64,000 nucleotides of DNA, taken from positions 108,011-172,010 of the forward strand of contig ONJJ01000002.1 of assembly GCA_900318115.1 (NCBI GenBank), in the 5' to 3' direction. Within the stretch, counting starts at the first letter, position 1, and each line of letters begins with the position of its first letter. Positions 27,084 through 41,454 of the stretch are shown here, in pieces. The stretch is from an uncultured Prevotellaceae bacterium. GTDB lineage: Bacteria; Bacteroidota; Bacteroidia; Bacteroidales; Bacteroidaceae. The notes beneath the pieces were generated by a model. It searched no databases, had not been told where the DNA came from, and saw nothing but the letters and a program-made list of their open reading frames with translations. The translations under genes were made by a program, and so were the position numbers.

Positions 27084-27122
27084 CAAAGAAGCAGAAAAGT
27101 GCGAAAAAGTAGTCCGAGGCGT

Positions 27123-27172
27123 AAATGACATTGAAATGACATAAGCGGTTTCGAAAGAAACGGGTACTTTTG
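27123..27172 (+). promoter_or_regulatory. Tandem AAATGACAT box with -7 element, copy 1
   Basis: AAATGACAT at 27123-27131 and again at 27134-27142 (11-bp period, about one helical turn), followed at 27165-27172 by TACTTTTG. No gene starts directly downstream. A second copy with the same spacing is at 27711-27760. Confidence 0.55.
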
Positions 27173-27266
27173 ACCCTTTCTAACGAACCTTATCCTCCGG
27201 AATACGGTCAATTATAGGTGATTTTTAGTCCTTTTGACTTCCCGCGTTCCTTTTTTTGATGATTTC

Positions 27267-27298
27267 TTTGGCTGAATCGTAGATTTTTTTTAAATTTG
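27267..27298 (+). promoter_or_regulatory. Exact consensus promoter without a convincing ORF
   Basis: TTTG (27267-27270), 20 bases, TAAATTTG (27291-27298). The expected transcript start (about 27305) is at or past the only nearby ATG (27303), which argues for a non-coding transcript. Confidence 0.75.
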
Positions 27299-27304
27299 CG
27301 GCAT

Positions 27305-27700
27305 GAGAAGGCTCATATTGCGGTTCTTGTGCCTGCATGAGTGCCGCTTTGATTCACTTCTCACAGCCTGCAGCGGTGGGCACTTACTGATAAAAACGAA
27401 GCGTTATGCTCTTCTCTTGCAAGTCGAAAACCTGAGAAATTTTCATCCTTTGCAAAAGAATCCTCCGGGAACCGCTCAAGATGAGATTGGCTCTGAAAGG
27501 AATGAAGACAGACATGGCAGCTTCACGCAAGCGTGGAACTGGCTTATCATCTTATTCCTTTGGGCTTTCTCAGGGCCTTCGACTTGAAGATGGAATATAC
27601 AGTTCCACGCTTCATCATATTTAACCCTTAACTTATCTTCGTTGGGGACTAGCGGAGGTCACTCTTTGTCGCAAAGGCCACATTATTCCAGAAAATGAGG
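27305..27700 (+). ncRNA. Candidate structured non-coding RNA
   Basis: The stretch follows an exact promoter, lacks a credible ORF and has long-range complementarity: a perfect 13-bp stem between 27529-27541 and 27600-27612 (AAGCGTGGAACTG with its complement), plus GCGGCA/TGCCGC (27298-27303 with 27342-27347) and CTTTG/CAAAG near 27665. The RNA class was not recognised: no RNase P, tmRNA or SRP landmarks were found, and 6S/Bacteroidales-1 RNA cannot be judged by eye. The 3' end is a guess. Confidence 0.35.
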
Positions 27701-27710
27701 CACAAAGCGC

Positions 27711-27760
27711 AAATGACATGAAAATGACATTGAGCGTATCGAGAGAATGAAGTATATTTG
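27711..27760 (+). promoter_or_regulatory. Tandem AAATGACAT box with promoter, copy 2
   Basis: AAATGACAT at 27711-27719 and 27722-27730, then TATATTTG at 27753-27760 with TTG at 27730-27732 (20 bases). The second AAATGACAT abuts the -33 element, a typical activator or repressor position. Drives the island genes from 27812 on. Confidence 0.6.
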
Positions 27761-27781
27761 TCGCCAAAAGAGAGGCGTCTC

Positions 27782-27813
27782 ATTGAATTTTCCTGCCGAA
27801 GTGACTATATTAT
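27782..27813 (+). promoter_or_regulatory. Island signature site A
   Basis: ATTG, then 20 bases beginning AATT and ending GTGAC, then TATATTAT (27806-27813). The first ATG of the gene (27812) overlaps the last two bases, so here the element could act as leader RNA of the transcript from the promoter at 27730-27760, or the true start is downstream (ATG 27830). Confidence 0.6.
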
Positions 27814-28057
27814 GAATATGGACGAGAAAATGACCATAGAACAGATGCGACAGAAGAGCGCTGAAGCACGACGAGTCGCGAAGGTACTGCAGCGACGGCT
27901 GCAGGGCATCACGGACGCAGAAGAGCGCAAGCTGCTATCCCAGCAGATGAACCACCTCTTCGTAGAAGCCAAGGAGCAGATGGACAAGGTGAAGTTCCAG
28001 CGCGGTATGGCGGCAAGCATCGAACGAGAATTCAACACCTTAGGAATTGACTCATGA
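27812..28057 (+). CDS. Small helical protein of unknown function
   Basis: 81 residues from the ATG at 27812; ATGs at 27818 and 27830 are also possible because a promoter-like site overlaps the first. The sequence (MTIEQMRQKSAEARRVAKVLQRRLQG, ERKLLSQQMNHLFVEAKEQMDKVKF) is highly charged and predicted as two long helices, probably a coiled coil. No family recognised. Its stop overlaps the next gene's ATG (ATGA), so it is coupled with the esterase. Confidence 0.6.
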   Translation: MNMDEKMTIEQMRQKSAEARRVAKVLQRRLQGITDAEERKLLSQQMNHLFVEAKEQMDKVKFQRGMAASIEREFNTLGIDS

Positions 28058-28629
28058 AACTGATTTATTTTCACGGTTTCGGTTCGTCAGCAGCCAGCGG
28101 AACCATACGCACGTTGAGAGAGCGGTTGCAGGACTTCGAGGTCATTGCACCCGATATTCCCGTTGACCCTGCTGAGGCGCTACCCTACCTGAAAGCGTTG
28201 TGCCAGGATGAGCAGCCCGATGTCATCGCCGGAACAAGCATGGGCGGTATGTACGCCCAGCAGATGTTCGGTTTCAAACGTATCTGCGTGAACCCCGCCT
28301 TCTTCATGTCCAAGGAGAGCACGGTGCTAAAGACGGGCACCTTCCAGTTCTTCAATCCCCGGAAGGACGGGCATAACACCTTTACAATCACCGAGGACAT
28401 CATCCGCCATTTCGCCGAGATGGAGGAACATCAGTTCGACGGGGTAATACCCGAAGAAAGCGAGTGCGTATGGGGCCTCTTCGGTAGCAACGACACCTTG
28501 GTCAACTGCGAAGACACTTTCCGGCAGCACTACCGCAACGTCCTGCATTTCAATGGTGGCCATCGCCTGGATGAGGCGACGATCAATGATGTGTTGATAC
28601 CGCTGATTAGGCAGGTGGCGGGAAGGTAA
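28054..28629 (+). CDS. YqiA/UPF0227-type alpha/beta-hydrolase
   Basis: 191 residues. IYFHGFGSSAASGTI is the oxyanion-region start of small esterases; AGTSMGGMYA holds the nucleophile S62; LFGSNDTLVNC and NGGHRLDE supply the likely Asp and His. This is the YqiA esterase fold, cytoplasmic carboxylesterases with unknown natural substrate. Overlaps the upstream gene by 4 bases and the downstream gene by 1 base, so part of an operon. Confidence 0.75.
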   Translation: MKLIYFHGFGSSAASGTIRTLRERLQDFEVIAPDIPVDPAEALPYLKALCQDEQPDVIAGTSMGGMYAQQMFGFKRICVNPAFFMSKESTVLKTGTFQFFNPRKDGHNTFTITEDIIRHFAEMEEHQFDGVIPEESECVWGLFGSNDTLVNCEDTFRQHYRNVLHFNGGHRLDEATINDVLIPLIRQVAGR

Positions 28630-28913
28630 TGAAAAAAACTATTCTATCTATCAAATATACAGATATGGAACAAACATTCACGATTGACGGTACAAGTTAT
28701 ACTGAAAAGAAGCTCATCGGCATACTGCGAGGGCAACTGAAAGGCCTCAAGAAATATGCTCATTTTGCAGGTGCCTCCATAGAATTATGTCATCAGAACC
28801 AAGCGCAAGAGCTCTTCTTCTATGTCTCACGCGATGACGGGGAAGACATGATGGTCAAAATAGGGCAAGATTCCATGGTCTATTGGGACTGGAATGGGCC
28901 GGTAATGGACTGA
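28629..28913 (+). CDS. Small protein of unknown function next to a nuclease
   Basis: 94 residues; its ATG shares one base with the esterase stop (TAATG). A later ATG (MEQTFTI) is an alternative. Predicted alpha/beta with a C-terminal acidic stretch (YVSRDDGEDMMVKIGQD, YWDWNGPVMD). No family recognised. It directly precedes the first PD-(D/E)XK gene. Confidence 0.55.
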   Translation: MKKTILSIKYTDMEQTFTIDGTSYTEKKLIGILRGQLKGLKKYAHFAGASIELCHQNQAQELFFYVSRDDGEDMMVKIGQDSMVYWDWNGPVMD

Positions 28914-28976
28914 AATTAAAAATGTGTAACAACCAAAAGGACCTCGCGATGTATAGGAAATCGCATAGTGAATATT

Positions 28977-30368
28977 ATGGAAATGAACATCATTCAAGAA
29001 AAACTGTTGGAGTTCAACAGTGATCTGTCCACACAACAAATTAGAGATTTCTACACGAAGAAGTCTTTCCTCGAGATTGTGTCCAAGTCGCGTAACGAGG
29101 CTACTCACAGTGCCTTCCTCGCCTGGCTTCTGCAGGGCGAAGAGTTCACAAATGACGATGCTCCGCTGCTGCGATTCCTCGACATCCTGGTGAAGAACTC
29201 TCAGGGCATCGACAGCCCCATTGTCTCTGACGATGCGTTGAAAGCCGCGATCCTGTCGAGAACCTTGGAGCTCGCAGAGGTCAAGGCCGTCACGGAGCAG
29301 ACCGTAAAATACATCAGTACGATTCCGTCGCGCGACCGCCTGGATATCTATCTGACGGCTACTCTGGCCAAGCCCGTCAGCGGAAAAAAATACCTACGCA
29401 TCATCATTGAAAATAAGGTCTTCTCAGAAGAGATGATTGCCAACGAGAAGGTACCCAGAAACGTGAGTGGCCCCAGTATGGATAGCTTGAATAAAGCGCA
29501 GTTCACGGGGAAGGAAGCCTACCTGAAGCTGCATCAGACCCAGCGCTATTATTCAGCCGTGGTGGAACATCCAGAGGATAAGGGTTACAACGACGAGGCT
29601 TTCACCATCTTTGTCTTCCTGACTCCTTCCGGTTCACGGCCTACCGACCCCCACTTCATTCCTGTCACCTATCAGGACTTGATGGATTACGTGCTCGACC
29701 CGTTGGTGGCAGATACGGGTTTGGAGCATACTGTCAAGACATATCTTAGCGAATACATCAGCGCCCTAAGCGTTCCTTCCATTTCTGACAGCGACAACGA
29801 ATTTACAGTGCTTGCCGTGAGCGCTGACGAGCGCGAGAGGCTGGAGAAGTTCTGGAAGAAATACGAAGCCATCATCATCGAAGCAGCCAACTCGAACAAG
29901 GCCAAGGGCTCAGAGGCCAAGGATCTGGTGTTGCAGAAATTCTACGAGAAGAACCAGCCCCTGTTCATGGCCATCTATCACATCATGCCCGACAAGGCAG
30001 CCGTGCTGAAGCAGTATTCCACTCGTGATTACACGAAATATACGCTGAAGTTCGACGGAGCGGTCCTGGGTGAACATCTCGGGAAGCGGGCTGTCATTCT
30101 CACAGCTGCCAAAGCGCTGTGTGATGGCGGTTACAACTTGCCCGCGATCGATTCCCACAACCGTGCGTTCTTCTTCAATGAGCAGGCCTTCGAGGAGAGA
30201 CACGCGCAACGTCTTCTCTCAGACGATGCCTACAAGAACAGATATACGATGATAGAGACCGCGAGAGGTCGCTTCGCCATCTGCAACCAATGGGGCGTCG
30301 GGAACTGGGATTTCGTCGATGTGTTGCTTGACTGCGCACCCGGTAAGTTTGAACTCATCAGCGAATAA
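28977..30368 (+). CDS. PD-(D/E)XK nuclease-like protein, paralogue 1
   Basis: About 463 residues from the ATG at 28977 (a GTG at 28968 is also in frame). An N-terminal block FLEIVSKSRNEATHSAFLAWLL is shared with three other proteins in this window. The nuclease motif is RLDIYL (D126, counted from the GTG) followed by LRIIIENKVFS (E148-x-K150). This arrangement is the PDDEXK_4-type family. Substrate and role are unknown. The C-terminal half (SRDYTKYTLKFDG, NQWGVGNWDFVD) corresponds to a second domain also present in the paralogues. Upstream, AGTGAATATTATGG is a weak relative of the island signature. Confidence 0.78.
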   Translation: MEMNIIQEKLLEFNSDLSTQQIRDFYTKKSFLEIVSKSRNEATHSAFLAWLLQGEEFTNDDAPLLRFLDILVKNSQGIDSPIVSDDALKAAILSRTLELAEVKAVTEQTVKYISTIPSRDRLDIYLTATLAKPVSGKKYLRIIIENKVFSEEMIANEKVPRNVSGPSMDSLNKAQFTGKEAYLKLHQTQRYYSAVVEHPEDKGYNDEAFTIFVFLTPSGSRPTDPHFIPVTYQDLMDYVLDPLVADTGLEHTVKTYLSEYISALSVPSISDSDNEFTVLAVSADERERLEKFWKKYEAIIIEAANSNKAKGSEAKDLVLQKFYEKNQPLFMAIYHIMPDKAAVLKQYSTRDYTKYTLKFDGAVLGEHLGKRAVILTAAKALCDGGYNLPAIDSHNRAFFFNEQAFEERHAQRLLSDDAYKNRYTMIETARGRFAICNQWGVGNWDFVDVLLDCAPGKFELISE

Positions 30369-30383
30369 CAACAACGGCTCTAT

Positions 30384-30532
30384 CGGATTTAGTGTGAATT
30401 AACATTCCCGGTATGGAGCGCGGACGTCTCGTCCGCAGTAACTTCACTCGTCTTCGCTGGTTGCAGACGCGCAGTCGCAGACGACTGCTGCGGGCAAGGA
30501 CGTCCGTGCTCCAGTTAAATATACTAAATCCG
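30384..30532. mobile_element. MITE-like palindromic element (149 bp)
   Basis: The outer ends CGGATTTAGT (30384-) and ACTAAATCCG (-30532) are inverted. Further in, GGAGCGCGGACGTC (30415-30428) faces GACGTCCGTGCTCC (30499-30512), and the centre has GCAGTC/GACTGC. No ORF. This looks like a non-autonomous palindromic repeat; whether other copies exist cannot be seen here. Confidence 0.6.
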
Positions 30533-30605
30533 TTTAAGCCAGACGACATGACTCCTCTATTATGACCTGACAGCTGTTGAATATGAACAAGACCATCTTC
30601 ATCCC

Positions 30606-30887
30606 ATGGCACGCTATCAGCAGTTGCCTTCTAGGTTCGCAACAAAGGAGAACAAACCTCTGTATAATTCCATCGTCAATTTACAATTGCTTCAGAAAAC
30701 ACCCAATATACAGAAAGGTGACAAACCGTTGAAAGACTGGGTTAACGAGCAAACTCACGGAAAAGATAAGAAATCCTTTCTTGATGAGCACCTTATACCT
30801 GATGTGTTAGATGAAAAAGATATTGCCGATTTCTTTGATAAAAGAAAGGAACTCCTGGTAGAAAAACTTCAAACCATTCTAAAATAA
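30606..30887 (+). pseudogene. C-terminal remnant of a DUF262/DUF1524 (GmrSD-like) protein
   Basis: 93 residues. YNSIVNLQLLQKTPNIQKGDKPLKDWVNEQT followed by FLDEHLIPDVLDEKDIADFFDKRKELLVEKL resembles the extreme C-terminus of DUF262 proteins with a DUF1524-type nuclease part, as in the type IV restriction family GmrSD. The N-terminal NTPase domain and the catalytic H of DUF1524 are missing, and the MITE-like element lies directly upstream, so this is best read as a deletion remnant. It could still be expressed as a short protein. Confidence 0.55.
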
Positions 30888-30915
30888 CGTATATAAACCT
30901 TTAACCCGTTTAAAC

Positions 30916-31371
30916 ATGAAACGCGTATTTATAGACATGGACAATGTGCTGGTGGATTTCCAGTCGGGACTCGATCAGGTGAGTGAGGAAGTGAAGGCAG
31001 AATATGCCGGACGGCTGGACGATATTCCGGGCTTGTTCGCCAAGATGAAGCCGATGGAGGGGGCCATAGATGCTGTGCATGAGTTGCAGAAGCAGTACGA
31101 CCTGTTCATCCTCTCCACGGCTCCGTGGAAGAATCCGTCGGCATGGTCGGACAAGGTGGAATGGGTGACGAAGTATCTTGACGACGTATTCCATAAGCGG
31201 ATGGTCATCACCCACCGCAAGGATCTCTGCCAGGGTGATTATCTGATTGACGACCGTGGGAAGAACGGCACCAGCGAGTTTGCAGGTGAATGGATCAAGT
31301 TCGGCTCAGAGCAGTTTCCTGGATGGGAGAGTGTGCTCAGTTATCTGCTGTCAGAGAAGAAGGAACAATAG
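30916..31371 (+). CDS. 5'(3')-deoxyribonucleotidase-like HAD phosphatase
   Basis: 151 residues. The HAD motif FIDMDNVLVDF (D7 nucleophile, D9), LSTAPWKNPSAWSDKVEWV and YLIDDRGKNG match the NT5C-type 5'-nucleotidase family, which dephosphorylates (deoxy)nucleoside monophosphates in the cytoplasm. Length fits the bacterial short form. It lies in the nuclease island but no signature site was seen before it. A link with nucleotide depletion defence would be speculation. Confidence 0.75.
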   Translation: MKRVFIDMDNVLVDFQSGLDQVSEEVKAEYAGRLDDIPGLFAKMKPMEGAIDAVHELQKQYDLFILSTAPWKNPSAWSDKVEWVTKYLDDVFHKRMVITHRKDLCQGDYLIDDRGKNGTSEFAGEWIKFGSEQFPGWESVLSYLLSEKKEQ

Positions 31372-31399
31372 ACACCAGTAACCGATAAGAAGATTAACT

Positions 31400-31687
31400 A
31401 TGGATCAGGAAAAAGAAAGGCAACTCACTATGTTGCAAAAGATTTACGAGAATTGGATGCCTCCTACACCAGCTTTCAAAGCTAACCACGAAGGCGTTCC
31501 TAAGGGTATGATTCCTTACATCAGCTGCTCTGATGTACATGACTACAACTACAATATCCGCGTCATTCCTCTGAGCGATTTCCTCTCGCAAGACGACGAC
31601 CATTACGAGAAAACAGAGAATGGTACAGTCATTGCACACTACGAATCGATGGAGGAACTCATAGAGGACGGTTGGGAACTGGACTGA
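31400..31687 (+). CDS. Small acidic protein of unknown function
   Basis: 95 residues, strongly acidic (LSQDDDHYEKTENG, ESMEELIEDGWELD), no signal peptide. No family recognised. Starts 28 bases after the nucleotidase gene. Confidence 0.55.
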   Translation: MDQEKERQLTMLQKIYENWMPPTPAFKANHEGVPKGMIPYISCSDVHDYNYNIRVIPLSDFLSQDDDHYEKTENGTVIAHYESMEELIEDGWELD

Positions 31688-31713
31688 GCCTCAACCTTAA
31701 ATACCGTTAAACG

Positions 31714-31745
31714 GTTGAATTATTGTGGAGTAATGACTATCTTCG
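31714..31745 (+). promoter_or_regulatory. Island signature site B
   Basis: GTTG, 20 bases (AATT...ATGAC), TATCTTCG at 31738-31745. The -7 is intermediate between the standard TAnnTTTG and the island TATATTAT. Lies 23 bases before the DUF2779 gene. Confidence 0.6.
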
Positions 31746-31768
31746 CCGAAACTTAAAGCAATGCAATT

Positions 31769-33454
31769 ATGAAAGGACTGTCAAAATCACGTTACACGGC
31801 CTTCTGCCAGTGTCCGAAGAACTTGTGGCTGAAGGTGTATAAGCCAAACGAGGCAACCATAGATGCTGGCCTGCAGGCACGTTTTGCACAAGGCAATGTG
31901 GTGGGCGATCTGGCTATGGGGCTCTTTGGCGACTTCAAGGAGGCGCATGCAGAGAAGGCCGACGGCAGCCTCTACCTCAGCAAGATGGTGGAGCAGACGC
32001 GCCAGTGGATGGATGAGTGTGTGGAGAACATCTGTGAGGCTTCGTTCATCTGCGAGGGAGGTTACTGTGCTGTTGACATCCTACGCAAGACGAATGGGGG
32101 CTGGGACATCTACGAAGTGAAGAGTACCAGTTTCCCTGAGTTCAACGGACAGGAGGCTAAGTTGGAGAAATATGCACCGGATATTGCTTATCAGAAGTGG
32201 GTGCTGGAGCAATGTGGCGTCAACGTCACGGGCACATATCTGGTTTGCCTGAACAGCGACTATGTGAGGCATGGTGAACTTGACATCGAGCAGTTATTCG
32301 TCGTCAATGACATGAAGGAGATGGTGGAGAATGAATACCTGAAGGTGCCGGCGCGCGTCGGTCAGGCCATGAAGGTGATCAATAGCGAGCAGGAGCCGGA
32401 TATGGAGCTTTCGGAATGCTGCATGAAGCCTTACAAATGTGCCTTCTGGGACTATTGCAAGCAAAAGCATCATGTGCCAACGCCTTCGGTGTTCGATGTC
32501 TATGGCGGACAAGGGCGTGGCGGCTTCACCTTCAAGAAGAAGTTGGACTGCTACCGCCAGGGACTCGTAGCCTTCGAAGATTTGCGACAGACTGAGATAG
32601 GCCCCAATCAGAACATGCAGATCGAGGCGGCACTGACGGGCAAGGAGTTTGTCAACCCCGAGGAAATCCGCAAATTCCTAGACCGGCTTTCCTATCCGCT
32701 ATATTTCCTCGACTTCGAGACCATGCAGGATGCCGTGCCACGATACGACGAGGCGAAGGTCTATGCTCAGATCACCTTCCAGTACTCCCTGCACATCAAG
32801 GAGCGGGAAAGCGTATCAACGTTTGTAGATACAGGAAAGTTGAAATACACAAAGACGGCCAACTACATTACGCATCGCGAATTCCTGGCGCCCAATGATG
32901 GCAGCGACCCGCGGCGGCCGCTGGCCGAACAGCTGTGCAGGGACATACCGATGGATGCCTGCACCTTGGCATATAATAAAATGTTCGAGTGCGGGCGCAT
33001 ACGCGAACTGGCTGCCCTCTATCCCGACCTTGCTCCGCATTTGCAGAATATCGCCGACCACATCATCGACCTCATCGACCCGTTCCGTGCAGGCGATTAC
33101 TATGTGCCGGCCATGGGAGGCTCGTTCTCTATCAAGAGTGTGCTGCCAGCCCTGTTCCCCGACGACCCCGAACTGGACTACCACAACCTCGACGAGCGTT
33201 GCCAGAACGGCGGTGATGCGATGAACATCTTCCCACGACTGCAGCAGTTGGAACAGTCGTTGCCCAAGCAAGGGGTGCAGAATCAAGATGGGCTGTTGGT
33301 GATGGCCGACTCGCTGATGCCCCTTTCTGAGCAAATAAGAATACGTGAAGAAATCGCCGCCAGCCGCAAGGCTCTACTCGACTACTGCAAACTCGACACC
33401 TGGGCCATGGTGAAGGTATGGGAGAAACTGAAAGAAGTTGCGGGAATAATTTGA
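31769..33454 (+). CDS. DUF2779-type protein: PD-(D/E)XK plus DEDD exonuclease-like domains
   Basis: 561 residues. The N-terminal LSKSRYTAFCQCPKNLWLKV, AVDIL (D103) and WDIYEVKST (E116-x-K118) form a Cas4/RecB-like PD-(D/E)XK domain, with a cysteine cluster CCMKPYKCAFWDYC (C217, C218, C224, C230) that with upstream cysteines may hold an iron-sulphur cluster. From about 305, LYFLDFETMQDAVP (D315, E317), TLAYNKMFECGRI and LLDYCKLDTWAM form a DEDD/RNase H-like 3'-5' exonuclease layout. Both are known for DUF2779 proteins, whose cellular job is not established. Its stop codon lies within signature site C. Confidence 0.82.
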   Translation: MKGLSKSRYTAFCQCPKNLWLKVYKPNEATIDAGLQARFAQGNVVGDLAMGLFGDFKEAHAEKADGSLYLSKMVEQTRQWMDECVENICEASFICEGGYCAVDILRKTNGGWDIYEVKSTSFPEFNGQEAKLEKYAPDIAYQKWVLEQCGVNVTGTYLVCLNSDYVRHGELDIEQLFVVNDMKEMVENEYLKVPARVGQAMKVINSEQEPDMELSECCMKPYKCAFWDYCKQKHHVPTPSVFDVYGGQGRGGFTFKKKLDCYRQGLVAFEDLRQTEIGPNQNMQIEAALTGKEFVNPEEIRKFLDRLSYPLYFLDFETMQDAVPRYDEAKVYAQITFQYSLHIKERESVSTFVDTGKLKYTKTANYITHREFLAPNDGSDPRRPLAEQLCRDIPMDACTLAYNKMFECGRIRELAALYPDLAPHLQNIADHIIDLIDPFRAGDYYVPAMGGSFSIKSVLPALFPDDPELDYHNLDERCQNGGDAMNIFPRLQQLEQSLPKQGVQNQDGLLVMADSLMPLSEQIRIREEIAASRKALLDYCKLDTWAMVKVWEKLKEVAGII

Positions 33455-33481
33455 ATTTTTCGAGAAAAGTGACTATATTAT
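33450..33481 (+). promoter_or_regulatory. Island signature site C
   Basis: TTTG, 20 bases (AATTTTTCGAGAAAAGTGAC), TATATTAT at 33474-33481; overlaps the stop of the DUF2779 gene and precedes the ATG at 33506 by 24 bases. Confidence 0.75.
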
Positions 33482-33505
33482 TAACGTTAGTTTAATTGAA
33501 CTTGT

Positions 33506-33910
33506 ATGGAAATGAAAAATGATCCGAAAAAGTTTGTCAACCAGGTTGAGGAACTTTACCAAGTGGCGCTCAATGAGGCTGCTTCACTGTTGAAGAGCAA
33601 TCCGAATGGCAGCTACATTGCCATCCCGGAATGGGATGATGAAGTGGACACCAGGGATTGGAACGACGTGCCCATAGCAATTTGGGCTGTTGGCTTGAAT
33701 GACGACGGACACATTTGCGTCAAGGCCTGTGTCATGAACGTCGGCTACGGCTATTCTGGTGATGAATTCTCCAATGACTGGGAAGACATCACAGAGCACA
33801 AGATTGAAGCTTCGTGCTATCCAGAGCTCTTCCGTTTCGTTGCAGAGAACTTAGACAAAGCCACGACGAAGGAAGAAGCCGACAAGGTCAAGCAGGATGA
33901 AGACGATTGA
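33506..33910 (+). CDS. Small acidic protein of unknown function preceding a nuclease
   Basis: 134 residues, very acidic, with many Asp/Glu (EWDDEVDTRDWNDVPIAIW, EFSNDWEDITEH, KEEADKVKQDEDD). Predicted alpha-beta fold with helices at both ends. No family recognised. It sits between signature sites C and D and is followed 44 bases later by nuclease paralogue 2, for which it could be a partner or inhibitor; that is inference from position and charge only. Confidence 0.6.
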   Translation: MEMKNDPKKFVNQVEELYQVALNEAASLLKSNPNGSYIAIPEWDDEVDTRDWNDVPIAIWAVGLNDDGHICVKACVMNVGYGYSGDEFSNDWEDITEHKIEASCYPELFRFVAENLDKATTKEEADKVKQDEDD

Positions 33911-33932
33911 TAATAACCAGCTGCTTAGTAAC

Positions 33933-33940
33933 TATATTAC
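33933..33940 (+). promoter_or_regulatory. Island signature site D (core only)
   Basis: AGTAAC followed by TATATTAC. A TTG lies 23 bases upstream, inside the end of the preceding gene. It supports the downstream start at 33955. Confidence 0.45.
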
Positions 33941-33954
33941 CTTTATATTCATTA

Positions 33955-35481
33955 ATGATTATGTTAGAAAAAGACATTTTGAGGATTAAGAATAATCCTG
34001 TCTATCAAGAGTTGAAAAGCTATTATAGCCGTTCAACCATTTTCAGTGCATTGGGCATCGAGCGCAATGAAAACAGGCATAGTGCATTCCTGTGTTGGTT
34101 GCTTGACCCAAAGTCCGACCATCAATTGGGTGTAGAACCTTTGAAGAAATTCTTGGCTCTGTATGCTGCCACAAACGAGAAAATTGACACTCAGTTGAGG
34201 GCTGCCTTTGTCACAGGACGATACGATGTGGAGAATGTCGAAATCGGCAGGGAGGTGACGCTGGCTCGGTTCTGTGATGACAGCTATGCTGGACTGATGT
34301 TGAACGAAGCCCAAAAAAGACTCGACATCTGGTCGGAACTCTCCGTGATATTGCCTGACAGCAGCGAGAGTCGGAGAATTGCCATGGTCATTGAAAATAA
34401 GATTTACAGCAAGGAAAGCAAAATGGGCGATACATATCAGACGGAAGTGTATCACGATTGTCTGAGCACATACTATGAGAACGAGACGTTGCTGGAAGTC
34501 TTTTTGACTCCTGACGGGGAAGAAGCACATTGCCCGGACTTCATCCATCTGACTTATCAGCAGTTGTTGGATGACGTGCTGCTTCCATTGACACCTCTCA
34601 TCACCTCTGAACATGCAGGACTTTTCATCAATGACTATATTCGCAACTTAGGGAAACCTGCTCTGGATGACGATGACAACGACAAGAAGGTGAAGACATA
34701 CTCCATCCTCGCCACTTCTCAAGAAGAACGAAGCCGGCTTCAGCAGATGCTGGAAACAGAAGGAATGAAACAGGTGCTGGAAAAAGCGTTGATAGCAGCC
34801 TACGGTGTTCAGGCAAAGAACGTAGTAGGCAAGGAAGCGATGGAAAGGAACGAGCAGATGTCAGCATACGAGACAGCTGTACTTACTGAGTTCTGGAACG
34901 ACAACACCGATATATTGAAAGCCATGTTGTATAACCTCGACATCTTCCCCGAGGGCGACAAAAATGCTATTAAGAACATCTTCAAGGAGAATAATCGCGA
35001 CACTACCAAATATTTTGTTGAAAAGAAGAGTGGCGACAAGTGGGTGCCGGCAGATGCAAACTTCAACAGGCCGCTTGCCAAAGGTCGTGCCGCTTGTGTG
35101 TTTTTCGCTCAGTGGATGGCAATGCATGAAGGAGAATTTACACTTGAACAAGTGCGGGAAATATTCCCCCTCTCCATCAATCAGTACTATAATAACCTCA
35201 AATGGGAGTTCATAGACACCCTGATTTATGGCAGCGACTCAGATTCACTAATGGCCGAAGCCATCAACAAAGCCGGGCAACGGATAGAAATCGCCAGCGA
35301 CAAATGGGACTTCTATCCCATAAAATTGGGAAGACGTGGTCGATGCGGCTTTGGATACCTCGAAGATGGCAATATGGCTGTCATGCCTAAGATGTGGCGC
35401 AAGGAAGACTTCCAGCGGCTGCTCGAATACATTGAAGCACATCAGGAAATTTTCTGCGGATTACGTATCAGACAGGCATAG
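33955..35481 (+). CDS. PD-(D/E)XK nuclease-like protein, paralogue 2
   Basis: 508 residues from the ATG at 33955 (MIMLEKD; 33961 also possible). The frame runs back to 33907, but that extension contains signature site D. N-terminal SALGIERNENRHSAFLCWLLDP is the shared family block; the nuclease motif is RLDIWSEL (D124) and IAMVIENKIYS (E147-x-K149). C-terminal part: FKENNRDTTKYFVEKK, KWDFYPIKLG and MWRKEDFQRLLEYI, also found in paralogue 4. Predicted cytoplasmic DNA-cutting enzyme of unknown target. Confidence 0.78.
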   Translation: MIMLEKDILRIKNNPVYQELKSYYSRSTIFSALGIERNENRHSAFLCWLLDPKSDHQLGVEPLKKFLALYAATNEKIDTQLRAAFVTGRYDVENVEIGREVTLARFCDDSYAGLMLNEAQKRLDIWSELSVILPDSSESRRIAMVIENKIYSKESKMGDTYQTEVYHDCLSTYYENETLLEVFLTPDGEEAHCPDFIHLTYQQLLDDVLLPLTPLITSEHAGLFINDYIRNLGKPALDDDDNDKKVKTYSILATSQEERSRLQQMLETEGMKQVLEKALIAAYGVQAKNVVGKEAMERNEQMSAYETAVLTEFWNDNTDILKAMLYNLDIFPEGDKNAIKNIFKENNRDTTKYFVEKKSGDKWVPADANFNRPLAKGRAACVFFAQWMAMHEGEFTLEQVREIFPLSINQYYNNLKWEFIDTLIYGSDSDSLMAEAINKAGQRIEIASDKWDFYPIKLGRRGRCGFGYLEDGNMAVMPKMWRKEDFQRLLEYIEAHQEIFCGLRIRQA

Positions 35482-35639
35482 AACCCACCATAAAAGAACC
35501 AGTCAAAGAAAGCTCGCTTCGCTCTGCCGAGCGTGAGGAGGTTCGACCGAAAGGTCAAAGTTCCCAAAGAGCCGGAGGCTGGCAGGCATCCTTCTTATCC
35601 TGTAGTAGAAAGGTCTTGGGATGTCTTTTTGTGCTCATC

Positions 35640-35671
35640 TTTGAATTTTTCTCATCGAGTGACTATATTAT
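35640..35671 (+). promoter_or_regulatory. Island signature site E
   Basis: TTTG, 20 bases (AATTTTTCTCATCGAGTGAC), TATATTAT at 35664-35671, 29 bases before the ATG at 35701. The first seven and last seven bases of the spacer equal those of site C. Confidence 0.75.
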
Positions 35672-35700
35672 TATAAGAAGTATTTAACAAAAAGCGCAAT

Positions 35701-36657
35701 ATGACACTTCAAGAAAAAGTAACAGCCTGGTTTGGCGAAGTCGGGAAGTATAACGATTTGTATCTGGACGTTTTCCAACCCAGCGACAAGGCAGCCCTGA
35801 TGGAGCTGGCTGAGGGCGGCGACCTCTGTGCCACCTGCGCCCTGCTCAAGGGCATGAAGCGGAAAGAGCGTTCGTTCCCCTATGAGCTCGAGGACGAGGA
35901 AACTGGAGAGAAGGTGGTGATAACGCGAGTCGAAGTGCTGGATGGAACCACCTTCGAAGTGAGCGAGGAGGTGAAAGACCGTTTGTACGGGAAGCTGCTG
36001 GAAGTCATGAAGGACTGCGGCACCATGGCTTTGTACACGGCAGCCTATCATTTGAGTGAAGGAGCAGCGGTGGATGTAACCCCGATCCTGCTCGAACTCG
36101 TAGGCCGCGGTGAAGAGAGTGTCGCAGAACGCATTGAAGACCCGGCCGTCTTGCAGAAGCTCTGCGAAAAAGGGAACAAATGGGCGGCCTACACGCTCTA
36201 CGACAAATACCGCTGGGGCGATGAGGAGCACGGCATCTTCATCGACAAGGAGCGGGCTAAGGAATATTACGATCTGGCAGGGGACATTCCTTATAAAGAA
36301 GAATGGGATCCGACAGATGAAGCCGGCGAGGAGTATCCAACTACCCGCGAGTATGTCCTCACGGGAGATTCCGACACGCTCGATGGCATAGAAACCCTCA
36401 TCCGTGACCTCTCCCAGCGCTTTGGCATCCCGGAGAACGAGGAGGACGGGCTGGGGCTCTTTGTGCCGCAACAGCAACTGATCAAGTTGCTCGTGGGCAG
36501 TGATTCCGTCTATTACCGCGGCAATGTCCAGTATCTGGAGCGTAAAGCCCCCGACCGCCTCGTCATCACCACCGAGGCCGACAAGGGCAAGCCCCTGCTC
36601 TATGCCCTCCGCCAGTGTTTCGGGAACCTGAACATCGAGATGAAGGACGCTGAGTGA
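35701..36657 (+). CDS. Acidic protein with a Sel1-like stretch
   Basis: 318 residues, acidic, no signal peptide. Residues about 150-195 (LCEKGNKWAAYTLYDKYRWGDEEHGIFIDKERAKEYYDLAGD) resemble a Sel1/TPR-like helical repeat, a protein-protein interaction unit. The C-terminus (QYLERKAPDRLVITTEADKGKPLL) is beta-rich. No catalytic motif seen. It has its own signature site and precedes nuclease paralogue 3, with site F in between. Confidence 0.6.
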   Translation: MTLQEKVTAWFGEVGKYNDLYLDVFQPSDKAALMELAEGGDLCATCALLKGMKRKERSFPYELEDEETGEKVVITRVEVLDGTTFEVSEEVKDRLYGKLLEVMKDCGTMALYTAAYHLSEGAAVDVTPILLELVGRGEESVAERIEDPAVLQKLCEKGNKWAAYTLYDKYRWGDEEHGIFIDKERAKEYYDLAGDIPYKEEWDPTDEAGEEYPTTREYVLTGDSDTLDGIETLIRDLSQRFGIPENEEDGLGLFVPQQQLIKLLVGSDSVYYRGNVQYLERKAPDRLVITTEADKGKPLLYALRQCFGNLNIEMKDAE

Positions 36658-36689
36658 ATTGAATTATTTTTGTGAAGTAACTATAGGTG
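36658..36689 (+). promoter_or_regulatory. Island signature site F
   Basis: ATTG, 20 bases (AATT...AGTAAC), TATAGGTG at 36682-36689; begins immediately after the upstream stop codon. ATG at 36716. Confidence 0.6.
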
Positions 36690-36715
36690 GGGGCTATTAA
36701 TTAATAATAAAAAGT

Positions 36716-38572
36716 ATGGATTATAAAGAATACCTTAACCAGATCATTCGCTTCAACGAGGATAAAGATTTCCTCGTGATGAGGGAAAAATACAATGAGC
36801 CTTCTTTCTTTGAAATCATCTCCAAGGAAAGAAGCGAAACAACTTTCTCGTCTTTCCTAAAATGGCTGTTTTCTTGCAATACGTCTTTAGATTCAGCCTC
36901 CCCTGTGATGATGCTTCTTGATATATTGGTTCGACGAAGCAATGAGCAACAAAAGAACATTGTTTTAATCCCGGAGAATCTGAAAACATGGATTGTTTCT
37001 CGAAGAATGAAGATTCAATCACTGCATGTTGAGACAGAACAACCTGTTAGTACACTTGCCCGGGATGTGTTTGATGCCTTATGCAAAAACAATAAGGATG
37101 AATATACAAAAGGCTATAACAGCGGCTGGATTGATTATCCCGACTTTGTAAATGCGCTGCAAATTGCTTCAAATAGTCAGGACCGCATAGATTTGTTTAT
37201 TGATTGCGATATTATTGATATAAGTGGAGAAAACAAGAAACTCCAGATTATCATTGAGAATAAGGTGGACTCCAAGGAGGGTGGCGCGAAAAAGTACAAA
37301 GAAAACACGCGCCTGCCTAAAGAGTATTTAGACGCCTCACAGACAGGGCGCTACTATCTTGGCACACATCGTACGGACAAGACTGCCAGAGATGTTTATC
37401 AATTATATGTCTATCTCACGCCACTCCCCTCTGCTCAGTTAGACAACTTCAATCATATGGAAGAGGGATTGTCGGAAGAATTCCGAGACAATGAGCATTT
37501 CATTCAAATCAATTATCAGGACATACTGGATGGTGTCATTGTTCCACTGACCCATTCTACTGCCTTGTCAAGCCGTTCACGTTTCTTCTTAGAAGAATTC
37601 AAGAATGAGCTGACATTTCCAAATGTTGAAGCGACTGGAGGAACATCATTCATTGCCGTGAGTGAGGAGTTTTCCGAACACATCTCGTACAAATGGGAAG
37701 ATTACAAAACCCTTATCATTGATTCAGCCATCTCGGCAGTGCAGGAACCCATCTGGTGTCTTTCTGAGACATATTATAATTATCAGCCGAAAGGCGAATT
37801 GCTAGCCCAGATGATAGCTTGTAATATGTATAGTCAATTACAGCTGAAGGGGTGGGTGTCTGACAAACAAGACAAAAAGTTTAATAAGAAGATTGAAAGA
37901 TGCACTGCTTATTATTCTTCCAGGACATGGTTTAGCAGCATAGAACAATTTGCACAACAGGTAGGTATAGATATCCGGCAAGTCTATATTTCAGATGAAA
38001 GCACAAAAGAACTTTTAATATCTTTCTGGGAAGAAAACAAGCTTTTCTTAAGCGCATTGATGCATAGTTTAAAACCGGAGGACAAGAAACATATACAATG
38101 CTTATTAGATTCCTTGACAAAGCGGGATACTTCTAAGTATATGGTCTATTACGATGACCGACCTATCTGCAACCAACCATTGAATAATGCACAAACAGTA
38201 TGGTGCATAGTAAAACAGTGGGTAAAGCTCCTGCAACGGACGGTAAGCCTTGAAGAATTAAATAAGGTCTTCCCCAGACGAATAAGTCATTACTATGAAT
38301 CAGGGAAGTGGTATCAGCATCTTTTTGTGGAAAAAGACAATTGCACTTTTGATGGAGAAAACGGAAATAAGCAAAAGGTACCAGATGACTGCTGGGACAT
38401 AGACTGGGGTGGCAAATATGATATTCTTCTGACCTATCCTGCTATGAGTTTTCCACCTAAATATGCGACACTTCTGAAAATGTGGCGAAGAGATGATACA
38501 GAGGAGTTCATAAAATATTCTATGAGCAAGCCTGAGTTCAAGGACAAACTTTCTGTCGTCAAGGAAAGATAG
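36716..38572 (+). CDS. PD-(D/E)XK nuclease-like protein, paralogue 3
   Basis: 618 residues, the longest and most AT-rich of the four. Family block: FFEIISKERSETTFSSFLKWLF; nuclease motif SQDRIDLFIDC (D159) and LQIIIENKVDS (E181-x-K183). The C-terminus has LTKRDTSKYMVYYDDRP, SHYYESGKWYQHLF and LKMWRRDDTEEFIKY, alignable with paralogues 2 and 4. Insertions between the motif and the C-terminal domain account for the extra length. Its base composition differs from the flanking genes, suggesting a different recent origin. Confidence 0.78.
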   Translation: MDYKEYLNQIIRFNEDKDFLVMREKYNEPSFFEIISKERSETTFSSFLKWLFSCNTSLDSASPVMMLLDILVRRSNEQQKNIVLIPENLKTWIVSRRMKIQSLHVETEQPVSTLARDVFDALCKNNKDEYTKGYNSGWIDYPDFVNALQIASNSQDRIDLFIDCDIIDISGENKKLQIIIENKVDSKEGGAKKYKENTRLPKEYLDASQTGRYYLGTHRTDKTARDVYQLYVYLTPLPSAQLDNFNHMEEGLSEEFRDNEHFIQINYQDILDGVIVPLTHSTALSSRSRFFLEEFKNELTFPNVEATGGTSFIAVSEEFSEHISYKWEDYKTLIIDSAISAVQEPIWCLSETYYNYQPKGELLAQMIACNMYSQLQLKGWVSDKQDKKFNKKIERCTAYYSSRTWFSSIEQFAQQVGIDIRQVYISDESTKELLISFWEENKLFLSALMHSLKPEDKKHIQCLLDSLTKRDTSKYMVYYDDRPICNQPLNNAQTVWCIVKQWVKLLQRTVSLEELNKVFPRRISHYYESGKWYQHLFVEKDNCTFDGENGNKQKVPDDCWDIDWGGKYDILLTYPAMSFPPKYATLLKMWRRDDTEEFIKYSMSKPEFKDKLSVVKER

Positions 38573-38598
38573 GCACTATGTAAGACTGGTAATGTGAC

Positions 38599-38606
38599 TA
38601 TATTAT
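38599..38606 (+). promoter_or_regulatory. Island signature site G (core only)
   Basis: ATGTGAC then TATATTAT; no TTG at the matching distance. ATG at 38629. Confidence 0.5.
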
Positions 38607-38628
38607 TCTCAAACTTTAAAAACAATAA

Positions 38629-40164
38629 ATGATGGATCCCAAACTCATCCTGGATTTTTATAAATTACCAGAATTCCAGAAACTTAATGCATATTACATG
38701 CAGAGCACCGTTTTCAGTGTTTTGGGTGTACAGCGTAGCGAGAATAGACATAGTTCGTTTCTGGCTTGGCTGCTTAATCCTGATGCATCCCACTCGTTGA
38801 AGGAGATGCCACTAAGGAATTTTCTCGCCCTGATTGCTGCCAAGGCAGATGATCAGGATAAATGCTACTTCTACCAAGTGCGCCAGCATCTCTTGTCGGG
38901 TAACTACCAACTTAAGGTGGATTGTGTCAAGACCGAACAGTCTATCGTAGGTCTGGCAAACGAGAAACTTTCAGATTTGGACTGTATCGTTGAAAAGACA
39001 GATAACGGCCAATTCAAGAAGGACGGTCAGAATCGCTTTGACATCTGGATGCTTGTCCACATTGCATTTACCGATGAGCAGGATTGTGAACGGAACTGGA
39101 CTGTGCCAATCATCGTGGAAAACAAGATTTACAGTTCGGAAGGCTATGCTGGCAATGAGGAAAAGGCCCAGACAATGCGTTATCACAGGGCTATGGGCGT
39201 TCTGCAGAATGTAGTCTGCGATGACAATTACTGTCAGCCACTGCAGGTCTATCTCACCCCTTCTGATACAAAGAAGGGACCAACTGCACCTTCATTTATC
39301 CATATCACTTATCAAGACCTGCTTGACTATGTCATTCAGCCCTGTGCCTCAGCCGAAAAAAGTGACGTGGAAGTTGGCGTGCTGATAAACGGATATATTC
39401 GCAATCTGAGTTGCCCGTCTAACCAAGATGGTGAGAACGAGAGAGATTATTCTATTTTGGCTATAGCTGAACCGGAGAGCCAAGACTTGGACGTGCTATT
39501 CAAATCGGAAGGCTTCGAGGCCGCACTTTGTGCTGTGTTCCCCGAAGAAGCTCAAGCTCTGCTCGGACAAACCACAATAGAGATGCCAGACGACATTTCT
39601 CTATTGGAACAGTTCTGGAATGCCAACGAAAATCTCTTTAAAATCGTTCTTTACAATCATTTCAAAAACGACAAAGAAAAGTTGGCCATCGCTCAAAAGA
39701 TTGTCAAGGTAAATAATCGTGACAACACCCGCTATTTCGTTGCTGTTAAACAAGGTGAGCCTTGGCTGAACAAAAAGGCTGCATCCAAGAGCGAAGCCTC
39801 GTTCCTCATCTTCAAGGCCTACTGCCTGTCAAGACACGAAATGAATCCCTCCGCGGAACTCTCCGTGGATGATTTGCGTAGCGAGTTCGACAGTAGCCTG
39901 AATTCATACTATCACAATCGCTTTCTAAAATATCTTTTCTATGACTTTGACCAAGACGTCACGGTAGATGTCGAGGGAAACAAGCATTTTGGTAACGCCC
40001 TCTGCCCCGAAAGCGATGGCTGGGACTTCTATTGGGACAACGACCATATTCTGCCTAACGTGAAAGGTCAAGTCCGGAGTGTGAAAATGTGGCGCAAGGA
40101 CGATTTCGACCGACTTGTAGAGATAGCCGTGAAACTTGGTATCGTGGTAGAAGCAAAGGAATAA
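38629..40164 (+). CDS. PD-(D/E)XK nuclease-like protein, paralogue 4
   Basis: 511 residues. FSVLGVQRSENRHSSFLAWLLNP is the family block; the nuclease motif is NRFDIWMLVHIAF (D138) and VPIIVENKIYSSEG (E164-x-K166). VNNRDNTRYFVAVK, LNSYYHNRFLKYLFYD and VKMWRKDDFDRLVEIA match the end of paralogue 2, its closest relative here. Two ATGs stand at the start (MMD). Predicted cytoplasmic; target unknown. Confidence 0.78.
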   Translation: MMDPKLILDFYKLPEFQKLNAYYMQSTVFSVLGVQRSENRHSSFLAWLLNPDASHSLKEMPLRNFLALIAAKADDQDKCYFYQVRQHLLSGNYQLKVDCVKTEQSIVGLANEKLSDLDCIVEKTDNGQFKKDGQNRFDIWMLVHIAFTDEQDCERNWTVPIIVENKIYSSEGYAGNEEKAQTMRYHRAMGVLQNVVCDDNYCQPLQVYLTPSDTKKGPTAPSFIHITYQDLLDYVIQPCASAEKSDVEVGVLINGYIRNLSCPSNQDGENERDYSILAIAEPESQDLDVLFKSEGFEAALCAVFPEEAQALLGQTTIEMPDDISLLEQFWNANENLFKIVLYNHFKNDKEKLAIAQKIVKVNNRDNTRYFVAVKQGEPWLNKKAASKSEASFLIFKAYCLSRHEMNPSAELSVDDLRSEFDSSLNSYYHNRFLKYLFYDFDQDVTVDVEGNKHFGNALCPESDGWDFYWDNDHILPNVKGQVRSVKMWRKDDFDRLVEIAVKLGIVVEAKE

Positions 40165-40199
40165 AGCAAGCTTTCTGTAATAAAGAAAAGACCGGCACT

Positions 40200-40484
40200 A
40201 TGCACGACTGGAGTAAATTCATAGAAAGACCTTATCAAGAGGTTCTGGAAGAACTGAGGGCAGTAGGTTATCAGGTAGTGGGTGATGATCTCTTTGCCTG
40301 TTATAGAAATGTCGATCTGCAAAAAGGTGATGCCAGAATCCGGCTGGTGTGCGTGCCTTTCGACTTGGACGACTTCGAGGAGAAGCTCAACGATAAAGAG
40401 AGAACCTATGAGTTGGACGATGTCGAGTGGTACACGTTCGAAATATATGATGAAGAAGGAGTGATGTTAGCAGGTAATCTTTAA
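40200..40484 (+). CDS. Small acidic protein following a nuclease
   Basis: 94 residues from the ATG at 40200 (MHDWSKFIERPYQEVLEEL). The frame is open further up to 40089, but that part overlaps the nuclease gene and reads as unstructured basic sequence. The protein is acidic (VPFDLDDFEEKLND, ELDDVEWYTFEIYDEEG). No family recognised. Lies 35 bases after paralogue 4. Confidence 0.55.
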   Translation: MHDWSKFIERPYQEVLEELRAVGYQVVGDDLFACYRNVDLQKGDARIRLVCVPFDLDDFEEKLNDKERTYELDDVEWYTFEIYDEEGVMLAGNL

Positions 40485-40511
40485 ATTTCTTTGGCAAAGT
40501 GACTATATTAT
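40480..40511 (+). promoter_or_regulatory. Island signature site H
   Basis: TTTA, 20 bases (AATTTCTTTGGCAAAGTGAC), TATATTAT at 40504-40511. Precedes the sigma-like gene (ATG 40536) by 24 bases, so that gene shares the signature. Confidence 0.7.
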
Positions 40512-40535
40512 CATTGTAAACAAAAAACACTGAAT

Positions 40536-41165
40536 ATGACAAACGAACAGATTGAAGAACTTCTCTTAGAGATACATCGCACACCGCTGCTGTCTATGGA
40601 AGAAGAATTGGAACTGTTAGAGAAGATACAGGCCGAGGGCGCTGATTGCGAAGAATTGGAGAAACTGGTGAATGCCAATCTAAGGTTTGCTGTCAGTCTT
40701 GCGGGACAATACATGAACCGAGGTTTGGATATAAGAGAACTGATTCCCATCGGGGCAGAAGGGCTGAAAGAGGCTGCATTGACCTATGACCTGAATGGCG
40801 ACACAAAGTTCCTTAGCCATGCTGTCCCAGTGATGCGTAAGTACTTCGAGGAAGCAATTTCAAATAACAATGATATCAAGAGAAAGATGCTCGTCAGAGA
40901 ACTTCACATGAGAGAGTATTATAACGAGGAAATAGACGATTACAATACTGCATTCTCTTTCGTAGTTGACTTTGACAGGAAACGATACACTGTAGGTGAA
41001 TTGTTCTGTGACTGCACCTATTCTATTGATGAAGTAGAACGATACATTGTAAAGTATCTGATGGCAAGGACTGAGCACGATGAATCGAAGTTATATTGGC
41101 AGATGGTTGAAAATAGCCAGCTAAACAAAGAAACAGAAAAGATAACAAAAATACAAGATGAATAA
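40536..41165 (+). CDS. Sigma-70-like protein lacking region 4
   Basis: 209 residues. TPLLSMEEELELLEKIQAEGADCEELEKLVNANLRFAVSLAGQYMNRGLDIRELIPIGAEGLKEAALTYD is clearly related to sigma-70 region 1.2 through 2.2 (core RNA polymerase binding), and TKFLSHAVPVMRKYFEEAI aligns with region 2.3-2.4, but the aromatic residues used for promoter melting (YxxWW in RpoD) are replaced by HAVPVM. Regions 3 and 4, which contact the -33 element, are not recognisable. The remaining 100 residues are acidic and helical. It could be an alternative, anti- or co-sigma factor. It carries signature site H and overlaps the next gene by 8 bases. Confidence 0.72.
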   Translation: MTNEQIEELLLEIHRTPLLSMEEELELLEKIQAEGADCEELEKLVNANLRFAVSLAGQYMNRGLDIRELIPIGAEGLKEAALTYDLNGDTKFLSHAVPVMRKYFEEAISNNNDIKRKMLVRELHMREYYNEEIDDYNTAFSFVVDFDRKRYTVGELFCDCTYSIDEVERYIVKYLMARTEHDESKLYWQMVENSQLNKETEKITKIQDE

Positions 41166-41451
41166 ATCAAGCAATAAGAAGAAAGAAGAGATTTTGGCTT
41201 CCATCATCAGGTCGTTTCCGATCTATGAGGTGCAGCAGATTTGTATTGACAGTCATCGTTACCCTCGAAGGCGAAACAGGCTGCAACGCGTTGGACTCTT
41301 CCAGACGAAGGATGGTGCAAAGGGAGCCATGCATGAATACATTAAGCACGAAAAGAAGTGCTGCGAGACGTGGGGAGGGAATTACTATGCTGACTGCCTC
41401 GGCTACTTCATAGACGAGGTTCTTGGTTCGTCCAGCACGAACGTATTCTAA
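41158..41451 (+). CDS. Small basic protein, last gene of the island
   Basis: 97 residues, basic and cysteine-containing (SSNKKKEEILASIIRSFPIYEVQQICIDSHRYPRRRNRLQRVG, HEKKCCETWGGNYYADCLGYFIDEVLG). No family recognised. Overlaps the sigma-like gene by 8 bases and so is probably co-translated. The group II intron begins 3 bases after its stop codon. Confidence 0.55.
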   Translation: MNKSSNKKKEEILASIIRSFPIYEVQQICIDSHRYPRRRNRLQRVGLFQTKDGAKGAMHEYIKHEKKCCETWGGNYYADCLGYFIDEVLGSSSTNVF

Positions 41452-41454
41452 CGG

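Follow-up and report, generated by a model that had tools for sequence, protein, structure and literature searches.

A promoter-like element of about 50 bp precedes many accessory genes in Bacteroidales islands and often borders exchanged gene modules

Results

A recurrent promoter-like element in an island of accessory genes

The window analyzed in this study is a stretch of 64,000 nucleotides from an uncultured Prevotellaceae bacterium (assembly GCA_900318115.1, contig ONJJ01000002.1, positions 108,011 to 172,010 of the forward strand). It contains an island of nuclease and other accessory genes, in which an earlier examination of the window (the original prediction) had pointed to eight sites sharing a promoter-like signature. 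The element formed by these sites is a near-identical stretch of about 50 bases found before many accessory genes on islands of Bacteroidales from rumen and gut. We consider it fairly probable that these sites represent copies of a single dedicated promoter element, about 50 bp long, which drives single accessory genes and behaves, together with the gene, as a module. Comparison of related loci suggests that the element often marks the border where one accessory gene has been replaced by another.

The geometry of ordinary promoters was derived from a sample comprising 275 kb of the same genome and the window (187 genes). TAnnTTTG, proposed earlier as the usual -7 sequence, does occur 54 times upstream of the 187 genes, versus 5 times for the reversed string. 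In these promoters, TTTG is commonest at 24 bases before TA (10 of 54), and positions -42 to -37 are enriched in A/T. The element carries its TTTG and A-tract at the same positions, with TTTG again 24 bases before TA, and is therefore promoter-like, with the primary-sigma geometry and another -7 sequence; this identity of the -33 position, spacer, and A-tract with those of local promoters had been missed by the original prediction. The element thus reads as a promoter composed of an A-tract, TTTG, 20 bp, and TATATT, with a -7 sequence TATATT[A/G]T and a GTnAC-like box. Of the 187 genes, 4 have the octamer TATATTAT at a distance of 22-180 nt upstream, all of them element-bearing genes of the window, and no instance was found ahead of non-island genes in the sample.

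In total, 147 copies in 56 loci were picked by a matrix that favors its own consensus (147-151 sites in related counts); in sites taken from the exact pattern, the fixed letters are invariant by construction. Among the 147 copies, the GTnAC-like box is GTGAC in 70 cases and GTTAC in 21, and 72 copies have TATATTAT and 18 have TATATTGT as the -7 sequence, while -7 octamers ending in TTTG or of the form TAnnTTTG occur in none, the selection by the matrix being biased that way. The start codon ATG follows TATATTAT at a distance of 20-39 nt at 87 of the 124 sites having an open reading frame (ORF). At 71 sites an upstream frame of at least 100 codons ends nearby, and at 41 of these it stops within the element; no such frame ends nearby at the 76 further sites.

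At 24 sites from the same genus, conservation drops past TATATTAT, except for an A-rich stretch before the ATG, and the only Rfam match in positions 22000-44500 is a group II intron. On these two grounds an RNA leader or riboswitch was ruled out. Of the two possibilities offered earlier, a distinct promoter class or a shared leader, the former is supported, as a promoter-like class largely limited to this and related islands, and the latter is not. An E. coli-type promoter TTGAAT-N17-TATATT fits three full sites, but it is not preferred since ordinary local promoters share the -33 box and the spacing. In loci L195, L196, L197, L198, and L199, the regions upstream of the housekeeping rpoD gene resemble the element in having TTGAATTTT and the same spacing.

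Sites in the window

The signature was recovered at all eight predicted coordinates, in three grades: four full, two decayed, and two half copies. For scoring, we used a matrix derived from 52 sites of other genomes, with no window site included and with loci L083, L084, L126, L078, and L096 omitted; the omission of L083, whose element heads a nucleotidase gene, was a matter of caution. For comparison, 40 shuffles of the window (first-order Markov) gave best scores with a mean of -20.3 and a maximum of -3.9. The full copies at 27782, 33450, 35640, and 40480, which combine TTTG, ATTG, or TTTA with 20 bases of the form AATT...GTGAC and with TATATTAT, score 49.3, 61.7, 44.5, and 41.9, respectively; the decayed copies at 36658 and 31714 score 5.6 and -7.4, the latter lower than the best shuffle. 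Of the half copies, that at 38599 has GTGACTATATTAT without the AATT half and scores -17.2, and that at 33933 retains GTAACTATATTAC alone, its own register being outside the 22 best matrix positions; judged alone, both halves fail the matrix. A chance match in AT-rich DNA was ruled out by the pattern scans of genomes and of the family, the reversed controls, and the shuffles.

All four full copies are on the plus strand. The first (27761-27813) has a weak A-tract, ATTG, AATT..GTGAC, and TATATTAT and overlaps the ATG at 27812; the likelier start of the gene behind it is 27830 (MTIEQ..., as in L034:5784). The second (33429-33481), with an A-tract, contains the stop codon of the DUF2779 gene 31769-33454 and is followed by the ATG at 33506. 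The third (35619-35671) precedes the ATG at 35701 of a 318 aa protein of unknown function. The fourth (40459-40511) contains the stop codon of the ORF ending at 40484 and precedes the ATG at 40536 of a sigma region-2-like gene. An additional copy at 24265 on the minus strand, overlooked by the original prediction, is a full-length variant (24233-24287) with an A-tract, TTGAATTTTCC, GGTTC in place of GTGAC, and TATATTAT, and lies upstream of an AAA ATPase gene; a similar copy is found upstream of the homologue of this gene in locus L035, while none was seen upstream of the homologue in L037.

The remaining sites, also on the plus strand, are a decayed copy with GTAAC and TATAGGTG (36658-36689), a strongly decayed copy with ATGAC and TATCTTCG before the DUF2779 gene (31714-31745), and two right halves, GTGACTATATTAT (38594-38606) and GTAACTATATTAC (33928-33940, 14 nt upstream of the ATG at 33955). 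For these sites, homologous loci are informative. The clearest case is the homologue of gene 36716 in L116 (94% identity over 197 aa), which has a full copy at the same site, with TATATTGT versus TATAGGTG in the window. Full copies also precede the homologues of genes 38629 in L165 (80%), 33955 in L172 (74%), and 31769 in L161 (65%), and the half at 38594-38606 corresponds to a complete element in the homologues of L165 and L161. Among loci with a homologous N-terminus, the element is present in 6 of 7 for gene 36716, 5 of 6 for 38629, and 4 of 6 for 33955; the weakest case is the DUF2779 gene 31769, with 1 of 14.

Restriction to islands and distribution across genomes

In the genome containing the window (3.33 Mb, 87% complete), exact GTGACTATATTAT occurs five times, always within the island and on one strand, in agreement with the earlier remark that the core had not been noticed elsewhere; one mismatch adds one occurrence on another contig, against one in the reversed control. 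A genome-wide scan with model R1 gave five strong matches, all inside the window. This model was built from alignment A1, which omits L083, L084, L126, L078, L096, L094, and L101 and includes the four full sites of the window and the 24265 variant, so it is not independent of the window. Next in rank after the five strong matches comes the right half at 38599 (17 bits, E = 0.017), followed by two matches of 10-11 bits, one preceding rpoD; the sites at 31714, 36658, and 33933 are absent from this search at E <= 10. The 10-bit match and the weak matches before rpoD of relatives represent partial likeness only.

The exact 29-position pattern was found in 48 stretches from 84,980 species (one genome each). 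Of these, 46 are titled as Bacteroidota or a subgroup, including 15 from Prevotella, Prevotellaceae, or Prevotellamassilia; many are from rumen or gut, and a few share a contig. The other two are from Prochlorococcus and from an unplaced UBA bacterium (L116), in which a gene 82% identical to 35701 stands behind the element. At the family level, 16 of 399 genomes are positive, with no reversed control among the rows listed. A looser model at E <= 0.1 has matches in 55 of 139 genomes of the same genus, many of them single and weak. Under stricter filters, at least four matches were counted in G104 (12), G090 (10), G076 (9), G040 (7), G000, G061, and G098 (6 each), G094 (5), and G093 (4), and the better matches of each such genome sit on one to three contigs.

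The GC content of the island is 46-49% versus 56-60% in its surroundings, and the island has probably been acquired. Positions 33400-36760 have no match in 50,697 phage records or in a plasmid collection, the element pattern has one match in IMG/VR, and a 74 aa sigma-like protein has no relative in IMG/VR. A phage or plasmid element was ruled out on the lack of a match of this segment in the phage and plasmid collections, the single IMG/VR pattern match, and the lack of an IMG/VR relative of the sigma-like protein.

The element at the borders of exchanged genes

The original prediction had not considered that the element borders gene modules exchanged between genomes. Breakpoints were counted in 56 loci, a set from which L046, L047, L213, L084, L126, L078, L096, and named loci with sites already in the set were omitted. 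In an anchored comparison of 151 sites, 23 pairs are alike upstream only, 9 downstream only, and 6 on both sides. In ordinary alignments, 94 of 993 free ends fall inside the element in both partners, versus 2-21 in ten shifted controls. Two-sided breakpoints are seen at 76 of 147 elements versus 51 of 340 motif-less gene starts. When the downstream gene is the same, the upstream neighbor is common as well in 49 of 312 element pairs versus 87 of 263 pairs elsewhere. Against the stricter controls the excess is two- to more than threefold, the element's own conservation adding to it. For instance, the window at 35641 and L118:5761 are identical from the upstream flank through TATATTA and then continue into different genes. 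In some pairs the short variable stretch inside the element tracks the upstream side, in others the downstream side (mean identity 0.66 and 0.79 versus 0.33 for unrelated pairs), a pattern more consistent with crossing-over in one or the other of the conserved tracts than with a fixed site.

These observations suggest the following scheme. The element consists of the A-tract, the TTTG -33 box running into AATTTTTC, the short variable stretch, the GTnAC-like box, and the -7 sequence TATATT[A/G]T. Its recognition by RNA polymerase would occur in the primary-sigma register, with transcription starting about 6-8 bases past TATATTAT and a predicted leader of about 20-25 nt. Promoter and gene behave as a module, the element often abutting or overlapping the stop codon of the preceding gene. 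The two conserved tracts could serve as natural homology arms, so that homologous recombination between two copies would replace either the gene that follows the element or the one that precedes it, and the incoming gene would have a working promoter. Common control of the element-bearing genes, which the original prediction had envisaged as one regulon, is plausible.

A number of observations weigh against this scheme. The -7 sequence is devoid of the TTTG of the primary-sigma consensus. A shorter pattern, AATTN11GTGACTATA, has 27 matches in 139 genomes and yet 4 in the reversed controls (the matches in G063 and G131, chance-like and in coding DNA, were dropped). Further, the DUF2779 homologues (31769) bear the element in one of 14 loci only, the homologues of 35701, 27812, and 40536 in 1 of 7, 0 of 7, and 0 of 9, respectively, and the window genes 28968 and 30916 have no element though their homologues do (6 of 8 and 11 of 17); the element is not strictly tied to gene families. 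As to the breakpoints, inspection exposed at least one indel artefact (L162:7638/L202:2199) among the 23 upstream-only pairs, motif-less junctions are often broken too (176 of 263 pairs), the pairs in these counts are not independent, and the excess is partly built in, as a conserved element stretches alignments to its own edge.

Sigma region-2-like genes

The ORF at 40536 contains sigma regions 1.2 and 2 by sequence, and its predicted fold matches a fragment of RpoS covering regions 1.2-2 (5h6x_B, TMt 0.88). In the model, the mean pLDDT per block of ten is 78-92 for residues 11-110, 62 before them, and 86 falling to 38 after, and the rest of the protein beyond the sigma part is modelled with low confidence. 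Region 4 was not found (among the matches listed, all end by residue 131 of 209), and the protein is devoid of the WW pair of region 2.3. Altogether, 16 sigma region-2-like ORFs occur in 14 of the 56 element-bearing loci. The element lies 25-29 nt upstream of six of them and 85 nt upstream of a seventh (L040). One of the 16, a 173 aa ORF in L167, resembles a truncated RpoD.

In L172:9009-9779, L164:1457-2230 (minus strand), and L118:2745-3512, a 5'-nucleotidase (NT5C-like) is fused to a sigma-70 region 1.2-2 module, and in two of these three cases (L172 and L164) the element is found 28 nt upstream. Five stand-alone proteins of 69-76 aa, encoded at L163:4663-4887, L163:535-744, L165:5434-5658 (minus), L090:977-1207 (minus), and L046:7983-8192 (minus), contain little beyond sigma region 2, with YAVWW[I/V]RQ intact. 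At L035:180-485, a separate ORF behind the element corresponds to the C-terminal half of the window protein 40536-41165, and the sigma part of this protein therefore seems exchangeable as a module. A rule by which every genome with at least three strict sites would carry an island sigma failed: the match in G104 covered only the C-terminal half, and with the looser model and profile this genome has 12 matches and RpoD as its only sigma match. Since G104 has 12 matches of the element model with RpoD alone, the island sigma seems not to be required and appears dispensable for the element.

Alternative explanations

Several explanations concern the protein that reads the element. The region-2-like genes of the islands could encode a dedicated alternative sigma factor that recognizes the element and regulates its own gene, the islands being closed regulons. 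We regard this as unlikely, if the least so among the rivals, although the association of sigma-like genes with the element is striking. It would account for the element 25-29 nt upstream of 6 of the 16 sigma-like ORFs, for the YAVWW[I/V]RQ motif of region 2.3 retained in the 69-76 aa versions, and for a -7 sequence unlike that of the primary sigma, and the four best genomes of the genus by profile (G094, G090, G076, and G000) have 5, 10, 9, and 6 model matches, respectively. However, G104, whose assembly is 85% complete, has its 12 model matches at E <= 0.1 (5 strict) along with one RpoD-like sigma-2 match at E <= 1e-5; 42 of the 56 loci, many of them short stretches, have no such gene; the window protein is without the WW pair and no region 4 was found in it; one of the 16 (L167) is similar to truncated RpoD; and the -33 box and spacing follow the ordinary layout. 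Another explanation, to which we give a small probability, is that these are ordinary strong primary-sigma promoters, alike through duplication or descent with their genes, constituting no special class and having no role in exchange. The geometry is indeed that of local promoters, the rpoD upstream regions of some relatives share TTGAATTTT and the spacing, and related genes often bear related copies; yet the element precedes genes of 43 blastp families, TATATTAT was not found before other genes of the sample, and the element is preserved even where one of its flanks differs. Two-part sigma factors are known in Bacillus and prompted a further, rather doubtful variant, a split or add-on sigma system. 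Region-2-only proteins, some of them nucleotidase-fused, would take over the reading of the -10 region at GTnAC and TATATTAT, with the -33 box read as usual, and sets of exchangeable candidate defense genes would be switched jointly by a module travelling with them.

The other two explanations assign the conservation to a different function. The element could include an operator of a repressor or activator acting on the promoter, the GTnAC box and AATTTTTC being the protein contacts. Conservation does reach past the -33 and -7 boxes, and the variation of the box is limited (GTGAC in 70 and GTTAC in 21 of the 147 copies), but no regulator gene common to the loci was identified, a systematic search for one not having been made, and no dyad was noticed by eye; we find this quite unlikely. 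Finally, the element could serve a gene-cassette system as its site-specific recombination site (integron-like att), its promoter likeness being secondary, as the breakpoints at its edges and the predominance of one strand among island copies might indicate. Integron-like cassettes were ruled out on the lack of a tyrosine recombinase match on the window contig C42: the three PF00589 tyrosine recombinases of the genome are on C74, C73, and C49 (serine recombinases and attC sites were not searched). Among ten genomes searched, an island contig carries PF00589 in G104 only (C18:26211, a 290 aa ORF read as chromosomal XerD), and the variable stretch follows either side of the breaks. We consider the att explanation highly improbable.

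Comparison with known systems

In the account of PMC4503421 (citing Arbiol 2010 and Comeau 2014), the promoter early stem-loops (PeSLs) of T4-type phages are conserved promoters said to mediate gene shuffling and are dense where shuffling is intense. The present element behaves like such promoter cassettes, here on bacterial chromosomes: as in that account, a conserved promoter-like sequence stands at the borders of exchanged modules, with the breakpoint bias given above. Unlike PeSLs as described there, it resides on chromosomal islands, has a promoter geometry of the Bacteroidota type, and is not adjoined by any listed stem-loop at the full plus-strand copies (a mechanical terminator scan of 27100-41500 gave 8 stem-loops with 12.4 expected). 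Nor is it a feature of T4-type phages, judging by the lack of a match of 33400-36760 in the phage records and the single pattern match in IMG/VR. The SAS/ESAS repeats of cluster K mycobacteriophages are described in PMC3203893 as short repeats before many genes, mostly in one orientation and sometimes containing the upstream stop codon; the host genomes examined in that work have no exact copy of them. The element shares with them shortness, prevailing orientation, position before many genes, and, at times, the upstream stop codon, but by the same description SAS typically occupy the position of the ribosome site, 3-7 bp ahead of the start codon, whereas the element mostly lies 20-39 nt away and has promoter boxes. 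We do not claim membership in either group; the likeness to PeSLs seems to be one of apparent way of working.

Relative to the sigma ABfr (primary-sigma) promoter consensus of Bacteroidota, as quoted in PMC7366714, the element has the -33 TTTG at the usual distance, the spacing, and the upstream A/T but differs in its -7, mostly TATATT[A/G]T, and in the extra conserved AATTTTTC and GTnAC. The same source describes PM2, a second promoter motif of B. thetaiotaomicron, centered at -10 and -30 and enriched for oxidative-stress genes; by this description, with which alone it was compared, the element resembles PM2 in being a second class beside the primary one. A search of open-licence PMC literature (listings, abstract starts, and some passages) yielded nothing on the element, and we claim no absence in print beyond that.

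If the favored promoter-module scheme is correct, bacterial accessory islands with candidate anti-phage nucleases possess what T4-type phages reportedly have, a portable promoter that both expresses the incoming gene and supplies homology for its swap. The 50-bp signature could be used to find such islands in Bacteroidales genomes, and the copies would be a natural promoter set for asking how the Bacteroidota polymerase manages without the usual -7 TTTG.

Genes of the island

An ORF is present within 70 nt of 116 of the 147 copies, and these ORFs form 43 blastp families, of which 29 are singletons; such families may hide remote kinship, and one family of 17 merges nucleotidases and sigma modules via the fusions. 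In the window, the AAA ATPase gene (22504-24189, minus strand) is IetA-like according to PADLOC (E = 1.5e-32). The plus-strand genes are those of PDDEXK_4 proteins at 28968-30368, 33955-35481, and 38629-40164 (PADLOC candidate PDC-S26) and at 36716-38572 (a weak PDC-S26 match), the DUF2779 protein at 31769-33454, proteins of unknown function at 33506-33910 (134 aa) and 35701-36657 (318 aa), and the 209 aa sigma region-2-like protein at 40536-41165, with sigma-70 regions 1.2 and 2 at about residues 3-111 and a C-terminal part of unknown fold. Further island genes encode a 5'-nucleotidase, a UPF0227 hydrolase, and unknown proteins. Going by the PADLOC family name, the nucleases are candidate anti-phage proteins.

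Within positions 41158-43322 of the window, a group II intron with a reverse transcriptase/maturase ORF comes after an ORF truncated to 97 aa, whose homologues have 239 aa (L035) and 241 aa (L037). Positions 43380-44150, beside the right edge of the island, contain repeats of units resembling GATTTTTGCTGAGATATTTGGTCTTGCGCAT, together with a CGCGCG-rich stretch flanked by an inverted pair.

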